Origin: Betaproteobacteria bacterium
Lineage (GTDB): Bacteria; Pseudomonadota; Gammaproteobacteria; Burkholderiales; SG8-41
Reading direction: 5' to 3'
Assembly: GCA_021732605.1 (NCBI GenBank)
Contig: JAKFUS010000021.1
Span: forward strand, 74,186 to 138,185
Length of the DNA: 64,000 bases
Shown: positions 9,504-16,958 of the stretch, piece after piece
Numbering within the stretch: position 1 is the first letter of the stretch
How the letters are laid out: each line of letters opens with the position of its first letter
Program-made: the position numbers and the translations under genes
The notes under the pieces: generated by a model
Seen by the model: the letters and a program-made list of their open reading frames with translations, nothing else
What the model was told of the DNA's origin: nothing
Database searches by the model: none

Positions 9504-10772
9504 TCAGTTACCACCCTCGCGACCATCGCGCAGCGCGATGACTTTCGCCGGCTCGGATTCTTCGTCGAGCTCCACGCCTTCGATCTGCGCAAACCGCTGG
9601 GAGATCTTGCCGCTGGTGACCTGCACCCTCTCCACATCTTCGGAGGCCTGGCGGATGTGTTTGGCCAGATCCTTCATGCGTTCGTCGAAACGGCCAAACT
9701 CCACCGCCAGCCGCGACAGCGCATCCTTGATGACATGGATCTGCTGGCGGGTCTCGACATCCTTCAGTACGGCGCGTGCAGTGTTCAACACCGCCATCAG
9801 CGTCGTCGGCGACACGATCCACACCCGTTTGGCGCTGGCGTATTCGGCGATCTCGGCATGGTGGCCATGGATTTCCGCGAACACCGCCTCCGCCGGCACG
9901 AACATCACCGCGCCATCGGCGGTTTCACCGGGGATGATGTATTTGCGCGCGATGTCATCGACGTGCTTTTTGATGTCGGCACGGAACTGTTTCTGCGCCA
10001 GCGTGCGATCCACGGCATTGGCGGCAGGCTCGAACATGCGGTGGTAGTTTTCCAGCGGGAATTTGGAGTCGACTGCGACCATGCCCGTCGGCGCCGGCAG
10101 CCGGATCACGCAGTCGGCGCGGGTACCATTGGACAGCGTCGCCTGCATTTCGAAGGCGCTGGTCGGCAGCACATTGCGCACCAGTGCTTCCAACTGCACT
10201 TCACCGAAAGCGCCGCGCGCACGTTTGTCGCCCAGCAGTTCCTGCAGGCTGACCACGCTGCCGGTCAGGCTGTCGATTTTTTTCTGCGCTTCGTCGATGG
10301 TCGCCAGCCGCGTCATCACGTTGATGAAGGTTTCGTTGGTTTTTTTGAAGCCTTCGTCGAGGCGTTCATTGACCTTGCCGGCGATTTCACCGAGGCGCGC
10401 GTCGATTTTGGTATTGAGGATTTCCGTGGTGGCCGACAGGCGCTCCAGCATCGCTTCGCGCTGAGTGCCCATTTCCTGGGTCAGGGTCAGGCGCAGCGCA
10501 TGCAATACATCACGCGTTTGCTTCAATTCTTCAGCCACGCTCAGGCGCTGGCGATCGCTGGACTCGGCGACCTGTGTGCCGAGGCGATCTCCCTGACGGG
10601 TCAGGCCTTCATGCAGGTCGCCGAGCATGGCGCGGTGTTTGTCCTCCAGCGCCTGCTGCAGATTGCGCACCGTCAATGCCACAGCACGGCTTTGCGCCAT
10701 CATCACGCCGATGACAATGCACAAAAAAACCAATAAAATCAATAAGATATATATAGATGCGGATTCAGTCAT
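9504..10772 (-). CDS. rmuC: DNA recombination protein RmuC
   Basis: 422 residues. An N-terminal membrane anchor (IYILLILLVFLCIVIGVMMA, about 7-26) is followed by a long coiled coil (about 30-150) and the RmuC nuclease-like domain, with the family stretch GTRADCVIRLP, VAVDSKFPLENY and IIPGETADGAVMFVPAEAVF. RmuC limits certain inversions and recombination events; the mechanism is only partly known. It is the first gene of a tight three-gene unit with mtfA and glk. Confidence 0.93.
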   Translation of the reverse strand: MTESASIYILLILLVFLCIVIGVMMAQSRAVALTVRNLQQALEDKHRAMLGDLHEGLTRQGDRLGTQVAESSDRQRLSVAEELKQTRDVLHALRLTLTQEMGTQREAMLERLSATTEILNTKIDARLGEIAGKVNERLDEGFKKTNETFINVMTRLATIDEAQKKIDSLTGSVVSLQELLGDKRARGAFGEVQLEALVRNVLPTSAFEMQATLSNGTRADCVIRLPAPTGMVAVDSKFPLENYHRMFEPAANAVDRTLAQKQFRADIKKHVDDIARKYIIPGETADGAVMFVPAEAVFAEIHGHHAEIAEYASAKRVWIVSPTTLMAVLNTARAVLKDVETRQQIHVIKDALSRLAVEFGRFDERMKDLAKHIRQASEDVERVQVTSGKISQRFAQIEGVELDEESEPAKVIALRDGREGGN

Positions 10773-10829
10773 GAGCTTGGCCCAGCGCTTTTACCAATTC
10801 GCCGGAAGTATATCGCCGACGACCGCTGC

Positions 10830-13328
10830 TTAGGACAATTGACGCAAGACTCGCAGCGGCGAAATCTGCAATACCTGCCGGGTGCCGAGATAACCGGCCG
10901 CCGCGATGCCGACAATGCTGCAGGCAATACCGACAGCCCACACCGTCAGGCTGAAGCTGTAGCCGACGTTGACGATGCGGCTGGCCAGCGCATACCCCAG
11001 CGCATTGGCGCCGGCCGCTGCGATCAATCCGGCCAGCGCGCCGATCACCGCGAATTCGGCGATGTTGGCCCGCGCCAGTTGCGCGCGGCTGGCGCCCAGG
11101 GTGCGCATGATGGTGGCCTGATACAGGCGTTCATCCTGGGTGCTGGCAATCGCGGCATACAGCACCACCAGTCCCGCGAGCAGCGTGAACAGGAATACAA
11201 ACTGCACCGCACGCGACACCTGGGTGATCATCGCCTGCACCTGGGCCAGCACCTGCGCGACATCGATCAGCAGGAAATTGGGAAACTCCTTGACCAGCGC
11301 ATTCAGCAGTTGCACGTTACCCGGCGGCAAGTAAAAACTGGTGACAAAGCTGACCGGCTGCTGTTCGAGCAATCCCGGCGGCGCGACCAGGAAAAAATTG
11401 ACGTTGAACGAATCCCAGTCCACCTTGCGCAGACTGGTGACTTCGGCGGCGAAGCTGCTGCCGGCAGAATCAAAGGTCAGCACATCGCCGAGCTTGATGC
11501 CCAGCGAGCGCGCGATGCCGTCTTCCATTGAAAACTGGTCGCTGCGCTGTGGTTTCTCGTTCCAGAACTTGCCGGCGACCAGCAGATTGTCCTTCTGCAT
11601 GTGTGTGGTCCACGACAGATTGAATTCGCGGTCTGCCAGGCGACGCGCGCGATCATCCGCGTAATCGGCAGACGATACCGAACGATCATTGATCCGTGTC
11701 AGCCGCGCCCGCACCATCGGATGCAGCTCGGGCATGGCGATTTTTTGTGCGGCAAAAAACTTCTCCAGCGCCGGGATCTGGTCTTTCTGGATATTGACGA
11801 TAAATCGGTTGGGCGCATCCGGCGGCAGACTGTCCTGCCACAGTTGCAGCAATTCGCCGCGGATGATGGTCAGCGTCAGCAGCGCCATCACGCCGACCCC
11901 CAGGGCTGCGACCTGCAACACACTGGCCAGACGGCGACGGCGCAGGTTGGCAATGCCGAAACGCCAGGACACGCCCGTTGAGCGCATCTGCGACACGGCC
12001 ACGATCACACCCCAGGCCAGCAGGCCGGCAACCAGCATTGCCGCGGCAAAACCGCCGAACACCAGCAGCCCCAGGCGCAGCTCGCCGGCTTTCCAGATGA
12101 TCAGGCCACCGATGACCGCAGCGCCCAGTGCATAAGCCAGCCAGCCCATGCCCTCGGGTGCGCCGATGTCACGGCGCAGCACGCGCAGCGGCGGCACATT
12201 GCCCAATGCCAGCAGCGGCGGCAGCGAGAATCCCAGCAGCAGGGACAGGCCAGTGACAAAGCCATGGATGGCCGGCATCGGTCCGGCCGCCGGCAATTCG
12301 ACAGTGACCAGACTGCCCAGCCACAGCGCCAGTGCATGCTGCGCCAGCAATCCGGCAATGCAACCGACCACACTGGCCGCGCAACCGAGTGCGATGAATT
12401 GGATCACATACAAACGCAGCACCCGCCCCCGCGACGCGCCATGGCAGCGCATCACCGCGCAGGCATCGAGATGACGCTGCAGGAAACGCCGCGCCGCGAG
12501 CGCCACCGCGACGGCGGCGAGCACCACGCTGAACAAGGCTGCAAGGTTGAGGAATTTTTCCGCGCGGTCGAGCGCCGAGCGGATTTCAGGACGCGCATCC
12601 TGAATGCTTTCCACGCGCTGCCCCGGTTGCAGCCTTGCATCCACCCAAGCGCGATAGGTATCAACCGCACTGGGGGTGCCCGCGACCTGCACGCGATAAC
12701 GGATGCGGCTGCCGACCTGCACCAAGCCAGTGGCCGCGATGTCGGCTTGGTTCATCATCACCCGCGGCCCGGCATTGATGAAACCGATGGCGCTGTCCGG
12801 TTCCTGGGTGATGATCGCGGCCACCGGCAGGCGGCTCTGCCCGACTTCCACGACATCGCCGGGTTTCAGTTGCAGGCGGGTATAGAGTTTTTCATCCACC
12901 CAAACCGTGCCGGGAGCCGGAATCGTGGTCGCGCGGCGATCCGGTGTGTACAACTCATCCGTGATGCGCAGTTCACCGCGCTGCGGGTATCCCGCGGTCA
13001 CCGCCTTGATCTCGGCCAGCACGTTTTGATTGTTTCCAGCAGCCATGCTCGGGAAACGCAGCATGTTCGTCACTGACAAACCGAGGCGCTTGGCCTCAAC
13101 AGCAAACTGCGCATCCAGCGGCCGGTCGGCGGACACCACCAGATCAGCGCCGAGCAATTGATTGGCCTGGCGACTCAGCGCCTGATTCACGCGGTCAGTG
13201 AAAAACCCCACCGTGGTCACACCGGCCACGGCCACCACCACGGCCATCGCCAACAGGGTCAGTTCACCGGCGCGCCAGTCTCGCGCCAAGAGGCGCAGCG
13301 CGAGCCCGATTTCGCCAAACAGACCCAC
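10830..13328 (-). CDS. ybbP: ABC transporter permease, YbbP/FtsX type
   Basis: 832 residues. One membrane span near the N-terminus (about 22-44) is followed by a large periplasmic domain, two FtsX-like blocks of membrane spans in the middle (about 265-480), a second periplasmic domain and three C-terminal spans. This is the usual ten-span MacB/FtsX-superfamily layout of YbbP. It abuts the ATPase gene (shared base at 13328), so the two form one exporter or mechanotransmission complex. In E. coli ybbAP is also divergent from tesA, exactly as here, so the synteny supports the assignment. The substrate is unknown; lipid-related roles have been proposed because of tesA. Confidence 0.88.
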   Translation of the reverse strand: MGLFGEIGLALRLLARDWRAGELTLLAMAVVVAVAGVTTVGFFTDRVNQALSRQANQLLGADLVVSADRPLDAQFAVEAKRLGLSVTNMLRFPSMAAGNNQNVLAEIKAVTAGYPQRGELRITDELYTPDRRATTIPAPGTVWVDEKLYTRLQLKPGDVVEVGQSRLPVAAIITQEPDSAIGFINAGPRVMMNQADIAATGLVQVGSRIRYRVQVAGTPSAVDTYRAWVDARLQPGQRVESIQDARPEIRSALDRAEKFLNLAALFSVVLAAVAVALAARRFLQRHLDACAVMRCHGASRGRVLRLYVIQFIALGCAASVVGCIAGLLAQHALALWLGSLVTVELPAAGPMPAIHGFVTGLSLLLGFSLPPLLALGNVPPLRVLRRDIGAPEGMGWLAYALGAAVIGGLIIWKAGELRLGLLVFGGFAAAMLVAGLLAWGVIVAVSQMRSTGVSWRFGIANLRRRRLASVLQVAALGVGVMALLTLTIIRGELLQLWQDSLPPDAPNRFIVNIQKDQIPALEKFFAAQKIAMPELHPMVRARLTRINDRSVSSADYADDRARRLADREFNLSWTTHMQKDNLLVAGKFWNEKPQRSDQFSMEDGIARSLGIKLGDVLTFDSAGSSFAAEVTSLRKVDWDSFNVNFFLVAPPGLLEQQPVSFVTSFYLPPGNVQLLNALVKEFPNFLLIDVAQVLAQVQAMITQVSRAVQFVFLFTLLAGLVVLYAAIASTQDERLYQATIMRTLGASRAQLARANIAEFAVIGALAGLIAAAGANALGYALASRIVNVGYSFSLTVWAVGIACSIVGIAAAGYLGTRQVLQISPLRVLRQLS

Positions 13329-14676: not shown

Positions 14677-15732
14677 TTATGTAATATTCACCGCGGGCGC
14701 CCCGGTAGCCAGCCGGCCGATGATGGCGGCATCGGCAAAACCCTGAGCCCTGAAAATGTCCAGGACGGCAGGCGCCGCGTCCGCCGAGCAAGCCACCAGC
14801 AAACCGCCGCTGGTCTGCGGATCGGTCAGCATCCGGCGCTGCAAGGTCGTGTCGCCCGCGGGCATGCTCACCTGATGGCTGTAACTGCTCCAGTTGCGCT
14901 CCGAAGCACCGGTGACAAAGCCGGCCTCCAGCAAGGGCCGCGCTTCCGACAATATGGGAATCTTCGACCACTGCACTTCCGCCGCCAGTTTTGAACCGCG
15001 GCAGATTTCGAGCAGATGGCCCAACAAGCCAAAACCGGTGACGTCGGTCAGCGCATGCACGGCCGGCATGTCCGCGAGTTCCACGCCGGGCGTATTCAGT
15101 TTGGTCGTGCTGGCGATCATCTGCGCATAAGCCGCGTCACCCAGCTCGCCCTTTTTCATCGCAGCGCTCATGATGCCGACGCCCAGCCCTTTGCCAAGGA
15201 TCAGCACGTTGCCGGCCTGCGCGCGATCGTTGCGCTTGATCTTGTCCGGATGGATCAGGCCCAGTGCGACCAGACCGTAAATCGGTTCCGGCGAATCGAT
15301 GGAATGGCCGCCTGCTATGGGGATGCCAGCCGCCGCGCATACGGCGTGGCCGCCGGCGGTGATGCGTTGCGCGACTTCCATCGGCATCTTGCCGACTGGA
15401 ATGCCGAGCAATGCCAGCGCCATGAACGGTTTGCCGCCCATTGCATAGACATCGGAGATCGCGTTGGTTGCCGCGATGCGGCCGAAATCGTACGGGTCGT
15501 CAACGATGGGCATGAAAAAATCCGTCGTTGCGATGATCGCCTGCGTATCGTTGATGCGATACACCGCCGCGTCGTCACTCGACTCCGTGCCGACCAGCAG
15601 ATCCTTGAACACCTGCACCGGCGAATTCGCCAAAACCTCGCTCAGCAACGCTGGCGTCAGTTTGCAGCCTCACCCACCGCCGTGGGAAAACTGGGTCAGG
15701 CGCAGGGCGGCGGGGTCGATTGATTTATTCAT
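14677..15732 (-). CDS. selD: Selenide, water dikinase SelD containing an in-frame UGA (selenocysteine)
   Basis: 351 residues if the UGA at 15670-15672 is read as selenocysteine (residue 21). Starting at the ATG at 15732 the chain reads LTQFSHGGG-Sec-GCKLTP, matching the family's glycine-rich active-site loop, where E. coli has Cys17, followed by the catalytic Lys (K24). After the UGA the frame runs open to 14677 with standard SelD features: DDAAVYRIN, TTDFFMPIVDDPYDFG, GGHSIDSPEPIYG, TDVTGFGLLGH. A standard caller would start at a downstream TTG (15648) and lose the active site. SelD makes selenophosphate from selenide and ATP. It is divergent from selU. Sec-containing SelD is known in other bacteria. 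Confidence 0.93.
15640..15672 (-). promoter_or_regulatory. UGA selenocysteine codon and SECIS-like hairpin in selD
   Basis: The UGA (15672-15670) is followed after 16 nt on the mRNA by a short hairpin. CAGC (15653-15650) pairs with GCUG (15646-15643) around a GUU loop, extended by two pairs (15655/15640 and 15654/15641) below a single bulged A. A loop starting with G at this distance fits bacterial SECIS elements read by SelB. No folding calculation was run. Confidence 0.6.
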
Positions 15733-15750
15733 GATGGGCTTTGTAAGAAT

Positions 15751-15794
15751 GGTGATTGGTAACTGGTAACTGGTGATTAAGTAATTAGGTGATT
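15751..15794. repeat. Short tandem repeat between selD and selU (7- and 8-bp units)
   Basis: Four 7-bp units of the form GGTGATT/GGTAACT (15751-15778) are followed by two 8-bp units, AAGTAATT and AGGTGATT (15779-15794). The array begins 18 nt upstream of the selD start. It resembles the arrays at 29731-29842 and 33614-33661. Confidence 0.8.
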
Positions 15795-15848
15795 AAGGAT
15801 GCCGGGTTGGGCTTGGGCGGCGCGCTGGGGATGCGATAATGTCGCATC

Positions 15849-16958
15849 ATGCCTGAAGCAACGGATCATCACGTCAACAAAGTGCGCACGACCACCACGG
15901 TCACCGTAGCACAAGTCGACCAGTTTGACGAGATCATCGACGTTCGCTCCGAGGACGAATTCGCCGAGGACCACATTCCCGGTGCGGTCAATTATCCCGT
16001 CCTGAACAACGCCGAACGCGCCGAGGTCGGCACCATCTACAAACAGGTTTCTTCCTTCGACGCCAAAAAAATCGGCGCCGCAATGGTCAGCGCCAATATC
16101 GCGCGACACCTGCGCGAACAGTTGCTCGCGCGCCCGCGCGACTGGCGCCCTCTGGTGTATTGCTGGCGCGGCGGCGGCCGCAGCGGCGCCCTCGCCCATG
16201 TGCTGACGCAGATCGGCTGGCGCACCGGCCAGCTGGAGGGCGGCTACAAAACCTACAGGCGCACGGTCATTGATGAACTGCAGACTTTGCCGTCACGATT
16301 CGACTGGCGCGTGGTCTGCGGCATGACCGGCACCGGCAAAAGCCGGCTGCTGCGCGCGCTGCACGACCAGGGCGCCCAAGTCCTCGACCTCGAAGAACTC
16401 GCCCAGCACCGCGGTTCGGTGCTCGGTAACCTGCCCGACGCGCCGCAACCGGCGCAGAAAATGTTCGAAAGTCTGGTGTGGCATGCGCTGCGGCACTTCG
16501 ATCCCGAACGTCCGGTGTTCGTCGAATCAGAAAGCAAAAAAGTCGGCAACCTGCGCGTCCCGGAGAAGCTGATCGAAGCGATGTGGCAAAGCGCCTGCGT
16601 GGTCATCGAAGCCGACATGGCAGTACGGGTCGCGCTGCTGAAGGACGAATACGCGCATTTCCTCAGCGATACCGCCCTGCTCAACACCCAGCTCGACTGC
16701 CTGCGCCAGCTCTACGGCGGTACGGTCATCGATGATTGGCAGGCTCTCGCCCGCAATCAGTCCTGGGATCAGCTCACCGCGGAACTGCTGATCAGGCATT
16801 ACGATCCTGCTTATACGCGCGCCATCAACAGCCACTATCCGCGACTGCCGCTGGCCTCGCGTTTTGTACTCACCGCTCATTCAGAGGCGGCCATGACGCA
16901 ACTCGCCTGCGATGTGCTGGCAGAAACGACTGCAATGACCGGAACCGCCGCCCGGTAG
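15849..16958 (+). CDS. selU: tRNA 2-selenouridine synthase SelU (MnmH)
   Basis: 369 residues. The N-terminal rhodanese domain (about 20-135) has the catalytic cysteine in YCWRGGGRSG (C105), and the second half has a P-loop GMTGTGKS near residue 160. The enzyme replaces sulfur with selenium in 2-thiouridine at the tRNA wobble position, using selenophosphate from SelD and a geranylated intermediate. It is divergent from selD, so the selenophosphate donor and user are linked. It converges with ugd, with only 11 nt between the stops. Confidence 0.96.
   Translation: MPEATDHHVNKVRTTTTVTVAQVDQFDEIIDVRSEDEFAEDHIPGAVNYPVLNNAERAEVGTIYKQVSSFDAKKIGAAMVSANIARHLREQLLARPRDWRPLVYCWRGGGRSGALAHVLTQIGWRTGQLEGGYKTYRRTVIDELQTLPSRFDWRVVCGMTGTGKSRLLRALHDQGAQVLDLEELAQHRGSVLGNLPDAPQPAQKMFESLVWHALRHFDPERPVFVESESKKVGNLRVPEKLIEAMWQSACVVIEADMAVRVALLKDEYAHFLSDTALLNTQLDCLRQLYGGTVIDDWQALARNQSWDQLTAELLIRHYDPAYTRAINSHYPRLPLASRFVLTAHSEAAMTQLACDVLAETTAMTGTAAR

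Follow-up and report, generated by a model that had tools for sequence, protein, structure and literature searches.

The selD gene of a betaproteobacterium, located in a window of 64 kb (the whole stretch of DNA that was analyzed), almost certainly encodes a selenophosphate synthetase that itself contains selenocysteine (Sec), with the UGA at 15672-15670 decoded by SelB and Sec-tRNA-Sec through a SECIS element and the product feeding its own synthesis, MnmH/SelU and other selenoproteins. The frame, its UGA, the machinery genes, the conserved downstream hairpin and the family-wide conservation were all observed directly in the DNA, and SelD, the maker of activated selenium, appears to carry its own pathway's product at the active site. 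The features of the window are as follows.

14677..15732, minus strand: selD, a selenophosphate synthetase of 351 residues with a predicted Sec at position 21 (from the frame and SelD models)
15670..15672, minus strand: UGA codon predicted to encode Sec, equivalent to the catalytic Cys position of Cys-type SelD (from the codon and relatives)
15639..15656, minus strand: predicted bacterial SECIS hairpin CGC-CAGC-GUU-GCUG-A-GCG, with apical loop GUU at 15647-15649 and bulged A at 15642
15733..15848: 116-bp spacer separating the divergent start codons of selD and selU
15849..16958, plus strand: selU/mnmH, tRNA 2-selenouridine synthase (NF008752, 509.7 bits; TIGR03167, 369.8 bits)

The selD frame and its in-frame UGA

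The selD frame runs on the minus strand from the ATG at 15732 through 351 residues to a TAA stop at 14677-14679, with a single TGA at residue 21. It matched the SelD equivalog model NF002098 over its full length with 517.6 bits (cut-off 299) and TIGR00476 with 427.3 bits (cut-off 125), and it contains the Pfam domains AIRS and AIRS_C. A phmmer comparison with PDB chain 3u0o (selenide, water dikinase), which we take to be E. coli SelD, gave an E value of 9.5e-96 and placed residue 21 opposite the first Cys in the motif GAGCGCK. The first-pass annotation had described a frame open from this ATG to 14677 past a TGA at the catalytic Cys position, and both points were borne out by the frame reading, the model score and the alignment; the residue number Cys17 of E. 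coli SelD is that annotation's figure, the alignment itself giving the first Cys of the motif. The catalytic loop reads GGG-U-GCK, with G-C-K directly after the predicted Sec. As had also been anticipated, the mechanical table-11 list starts the ORF at a downstream TTG (15648; 323 aa) and drops the catalytic loop, and a start site placed after the UGA would strip this loop from such SelD genes generally.

The neighboring selU, presumably a second user of selenophosphate, is divergent as first described, with a spacing of 116 bp between the two ATGs instead of 117 bp. Among 30 family loci with at most 1.5 kb of flanking sequence, 21 have it divergently upstream of selD, and in the other nine it is not within the available flank. 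TGA-split frames were sought throughout the window, which gave seven candidates, namely SelD and six others. Reassignment of UGA was rejected, since TGA serves as an ordinary stop and ends 22 of the 40 ORFs of ≥250 aa that were chosen mechanically in the window.

The source genome, a 3.48-Mb draft in 75 contigs, was searched for selA, selB and tRNA-Sec, as the first-pass annotation had advised, and all three were found above their family cut-offs on one contig (C44) within 6 kb: selA at 10007-11344 (571 bits, cut-off 268), selB at 11429-13312 (423 bits, cut-off 242) and a tRNA-Sec with a UCA anticodon at 15602-15692 (75.9 bits, cut-off 47). The view that this organism inserts Sec is supported by these genes, by the codons of its relatives and by the constrained hairpin stretch described below, and the organism is probably a Sec inserter.

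Residue 21 across relatives

The family of the source organism (f1) is represented by 74 genomes from nine genera, and two further families of the order (f6 and f13) also hold TGA-containing SelD. TGA was observed once per SelD in all 70 informative f1 genomes (71 places), and there was no covering match without it. The four uninformative genomes are G016, which has only a C-terminal part of SelD, and G009, G021 and G071, which have no proper SelD match, while G028 carries two TGA SelD copies and has a listed contamination of 6%. SelD matches were obtained from 169 of 250 genomes of the order sample, where TGA, among the matches listed, was seen in f1 (seven genomes), f6 (four) and f13 (seven), the others being free of stops. 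In the phylum sample of 299 genomes, 68 had a SelD match, with TGA in the source genome and in two genomes of family f54.

Alignment of relatives at residue 21, the comparison first proposed for this codon, revealed TGA or Cys codons throughout the 208 of 210 loci that were read (88 TGA, 99 TGC and 21 TGT), so that all 120 loci read without TGA carry a Cys codon. The two loci outside this reading are L031, which has TGC in a separate pattern reading, and L231. The best-80 loci of a pattern scan and the other fetched loci partly share genomes (for example, L020 and L192 are identical rows). Sec-SelD appears to be fixed across this betaproteobacterial family, with near relatives using Cys. Distant SelD-like stretches of 32-35% identity were also noticed in frames of 783 and 870 aa (G036:C417 and G054:C20), which are perhaps of an oxidoreductase-SelD fusion type.

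A constrained hairpin downstream of the UGA

The first-pass annotation had reported a hairpin with a G-first loop 16 nt after the UGA; the hairpin and its loop stand, and the distance becomes 13 nt to the stem and 20 nt to the loop G, counted from the last UGA base. Its conservation was assessed in 82 Sec rows (71 f1, four f6 and seven f13), all relatives from three families, and in 104 Cys rows. Over 150 nt, all 82 Sec genes are distinct and the Cys rows comprise 102 distinct sequences, and over the 27-nt hairpin stretch there are 44 distinct Sec and 100 distinct Cys sequences. Counting majority residues only, a single codon is used after the UGA for Ala+7 (GCG, 82/82), Leu+8 (TTG, 70/70), Leu+9 (CTG, 82/82) and Ser+10 (AGC, 63/63). 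Of 262 seven-codon windows in the Sec genes, the one beginning at +5 is lowest in synonymous entropy, at 0.16 of the maximum against a median of 0.67, whereas the Cys rows show no comparable dip, their lowest of 234 windows reaching 0.46 and being located elsewhere.

A 4-bp apical stem closing a 3-nt loop at +23 can be formed in all 82 Sec rows versus 9 of the 104 Cys rows, or 5 of 104 when a G is also required first in the loop (again 82/82 in Sec rows), and this is the sole one of 980 tested stem positions kept in every Sec row. The loop is GTT in 70 rows, GGT in 11 and GGC in one, and 81 of the 82 keep a lower stem of 3 bp or more. The bulge lies on the 3′ side in 63 rows, on the 5′ side in 12 and is absent in seven, its side varying with paired changes at codons +5 and +10 (ACG/AGC in 59 rows, CCG/GGG in nine and CCG/GCG in three). 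The E. coli fdhF element has a bulge unlike the 3′-side bulge of these 63 rows.

Against synonymous nulls, the mean folding z was -1.57 for the 44 distinct Sec stretches versus -0.12 for the 100 distinct Cys stretches, and a median of 6.2% of the nulls were equally stable for the former. Folding of the single sequence 15672-15630 (43 nt), which the first-pass annotation had suggested as a check, gave -12.5 kcal/mol and a z of -0.36, no better than shuffles, and three other lengths gave z values of -1.46, -0.97 and +0.97. Because this fold is indistinguishable from shuffles, it was dropped as proof of a SECIS, and it is the comparison of relatives that supports the hairpin. Rfam scans at the hairpin returned no SECIS family and a weak snoRNA match alone.

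The bacterial SECIS model, as set out in the accessible part of its source, requires an apical loop of 3-9 nt on an upper stem of 4-16 bp, a G within the first two loop positions that is mostly followed by G or U, a distance of 16-37 nt from UGA to apical loop and an MFE of ≤ -7.5 kcal/mol (PMC13188914). Set beside these values, the selD hairpin has a 3-nt loop on 4 bp with 3 bp below the bulge, a loop of GTT, GGT or GGC in all 82 rows, a distance of 20 nt, and an energy of -12.5 kcal/mol, with a mean of -10.05 kcal/mol over the 44 distinct Sec stretches. By its conservation and by this comparison, the hairpin downstream of the selD UGA is a putative bacterial SECIS.

These rows also bear on a stop at the UGA followed by a restart at a TTG or GTG eight codons on, which would give a SelD without its catalytic loop and which we regard as very unlikely. 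Codon +8 is indeed TTG in 70, GTG in 11 and GCG in one of the 82 Sec rows, and TTG 15648 heads the mechanical ORF; however, the residues upstream of the UGA show conservation and align with SelD, every locus read without TGA has a Cys codon at residue 21, and the frozen codons flank the would-be start on both sides. A sequencing error or a decayed selD copy, conceivable in a window from a 75-contig draft assembly, is so improbable as to be negligible, as the TGA is shared by all 70 informative genomes of the family and by two further families, with protein and hairpin conserved.

Under the favored reading of a Sec-containing SelD, SelB and Sec-tRNA-Sec would decode the UGA at 15672-15670 under the direction of the SECIS hairpin at +16 to +33 nt. 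SelD would yield selenophosphate, from which SelA would produce Sec-tRNA, part of it returning into SelD, and MnmH/SelU would produce tRNA selenouridine, while peroxiredoxin/thioredoxin-type selenoproteins would be further Sec users. Insertion of Sec in the cell, a catalytic role for this residue and the resulting dependence loop are suggested by the sequences. A part for SelD in its own supply, as proposed in the first-pass annotation, would be a consequence of this pathway.

Other candidate selenoproteins of the source genome

A total of eight places in the source genome exceeded the AhpC-TSA family cut-off, and three of them contain one TGA, comprising two peroxiredoxin-like frames (FTGG-U-T and FTDT-U-T) and a ResA/TlpA-like frame (WASW-U-STC) that adjoins the FTDT-U-T frame on contig C14. 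They fall in two loci:

C26:33742-34119 (L258): thioredoxin-fold frame with in-frame TGA at the expected catalytic Cys
C14:18494-19446 (L259): two adjacent thioredoxin-fold frames with in-frame TGA at the expected catalytic Cys

We take the TGA of the two peroxiredoxin-like frames to stand at the expected peroxidatic Cys, and the ResA/TlpA-like motif was likewise assigned from family knowledge. TGA counterparts of the three frames were found in three genomes of the same genus (G014, G019 and G024). The NCBIfam matches of the TGA-containing frames are below the curated cut-offs, and these genes were given one fold each, without a null. SelD as sole selenoprotein was rejected on the TGA in three of eight AhpC-TSA places, and the three peroxiredoxin/thioredoxin-like genes with TGA at the catalytic Cys are predicted to be further selenoproteins of this genome. 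This set is a minimum, because the search covered the AhpC-TSA and formate dehydrogenase families only. A fourth peroxiredoxin-like TGA frame, RGDW-U-RYC, was seen at L266 (G019 C2) and L267 (G024 C10) and is absent among the TGA matches of the source genome.

Retention of the Sec machinery

The Sec machinery was analyzed in 80 genomes (43 of the 74 f1, four f6, seven f13 and 26 with Cys-SelD); G009, G016, G021 and G071, which have no observed TGA, were excluded from the comparison, leaving 50 TGA-SelD genomes. The selA gene was detected in 47 of these 50 versus 10 of the 26 Cys-SelD genomes (Fisher p 2.8e-7, a value that ignores relatedness, the 50 genomes coming from three families). MnmH was found in 48 of the 50 and in all 26 Cys-SelD genomes, 16 of which have no selA. 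The three TGA-SelD genomes without detected selA (G001, G042 and G214; completeness 92, 91 and 84%) were taken as assembly gaps. One TGA-SelD genome has a selA match with a single internal TAA (G003:C16:2522-3880), possibly through decay or assembly error. G071, which is 95% complete, has selA and a TGA-containing FdhA with no proper SelD and no MnmH match, and the pair may be missing together through an assembly gap.

An FdnG-type Sec-FdhA was not found in the source genome, where one weak match without a stop was obtained, and no TGA was present among the TIGR01591 matches listed. TIGR01553 detected TGA-containing FdhA in 20 of the 80 genomes; among selA-positive genomes, it occurs in 9 of 47 with TGA-SelD versus 9 of 10 with Cys-SelD, with G031, which has a C-terminal FdhA piece alone, scored as lacking it. 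Of 12 loci, 11 had their FdhA context read (L250 left out).

The selA contrast matches what a lock-in of the machinery by Sec in SelD would predict: a Sec SelD would need its own product, so the Sec machinery could not be dropped while selenouridine synthesis is kept. Such a lock-in, if true, would explain the persistence of selA without a Sec formate dehydrogenase and would have given room for peroxiredoxin selenoproteins. The pattern fits a published proposal, in the part of the source available, by which Sec SelD keeps up the Sec trait where organisms lack FdhA (PMC1794560); that idea is already in print, and the family-scale selA contrast is what these sequences may add to it. The same source, in the portion accessible, describes betaproteobacteria with Sec-FdhA and neighboring selABC in which fdhA is the only selenoprotein gene (PMC1794560). 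The clustering of selA, selB and selC is as in the present genome, which differs from that usual trait, as portrayed there, in having no detected FdnG-type Sec-FdhA.

Evolutionary origin of Sec in SelD

The SelD tree was constructed from 84 chosen rows, including 23 of the 71 f1, all four f6 and four of the seven f13 genes, with Sec SelDs drawn from within the phylum. The f1 and f6 rows form one clade (100/97, bootstrap/SH-aLRT), those of f13 make up a second, separate clade (99/97), and in the best tree these Sec clades are nested among Cys forms over a weak backbone, the nodes between Sec clades and Cys rows having 78/25, 81/88, 54/57 and 91/67. The trait needs three changes on the quick tree. 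In a SelA tree of 21 rows, the 12 from the three families all lie to the same side of a weakly supported branch (74/86), and f1 and f6 are grouped (98/92). The trees favor a probable gain of Sec from Cys in SelD, with a weak backbone. We give roughly even chances to a fuller history, in which betaproteobacterial SelD changed from Cys to Sec once or twice, independently of Pasteurellales, with the SECIS built from Pro-Ala-Leu-Leu-Ser codons, followed by lock-in of the machinery and room for peroxiredoxin selenoproteins.

That Sec is instead ancestral in this SelD branch, with the surrounding Cys forms as repeated losses, is possible though rather doubtful. The weak backbone nodes leave room for it, a single clade of the three Sec families was not rejected (p-AU 0.447, quick tree), and a 2006 survey, in its accessible part, recorded Sec-to-Cys changes in SelD with no Cys-to-Sec (PMC1794560). 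However, a Sec ancestor would cost 13 losses over the tree, eight of them on the ingroup side versus two gains there; relic hairpins are few, the apical stem being possible in no more than 9 of the 104 Cys rows; and 65 of the 68 SelD-bearing genomes of the phylum sample have no stop in SelD.

Horizontal transfer of Sec SelD from a distant selenoprotein-rich group is improbable. The f13 SelD does stand apart from f1 and f6, beside rows from genomes outside the class (node 84/88), in a tree limited to Sec SelDs of the phylum; yet the best 80 of at least 587 relatives in the pattern scan are betaproteobacterial by title in all but about seven, the four TGA loci among these 80 belong to three betaproteobacterial MAGs and one 'uncultured bacterium', and the SelA of f1 and f6 is grouped as well.

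Relation to known Sec-containing SelD

Sec-containing SelD is already known, 19% of the SelD genes in a 223-genome reference set encoding Sec according to the accessible part of one study (PMC4561486), and the known SelD-Sec/SPS2-Sec proteins are of the same enzyme family and likewise have Sec in their catalytic loop. What sets the present case apart is its occurrence in a family of betaproteobacteria, where near relatives other than f1, f6 and f13 show Cys codons or no stop. It contributes this lineage, a probable gain of Sec and a set of predicted selenoproteins. Within the literature covered, which included the accessible parts of PMC1794560, PMC4561486, PMC5029168, PMC2398784, PMC12013277, PMC9312934 and PMC13188914, no description of a betaproteobacterial Sec SelD turned up. 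With this lineage, Sec and Cys forms of a single enzyme can be compared as they occur naturally among related genomes. It also allows one to ask whether an enzyme that depends on itself can fix a translation pathway that would otherwise be dispensable.

The Pasteurellales SelD-Sec, described in the available sections of a 2015 study as the first clearly documented Cys-to-Sec conversion, is likewise nested among Cys forms (PMC4561486). TGA SelD was also observed in L226 and L227 (G327 and G422, genomes of about 2 Mb from the same class), which we infer to be Pasteurellales and which lie beside Cys forms in the tree, on a branch separate from f1, f6 and f13. Pairing around a loop is possible there at the same place, +23, but the stretch is weak (-5.2 kcal/mol, z -0.68), and the 3-nt-loop model fits neither of the two, unlike all 82 Sec rows.
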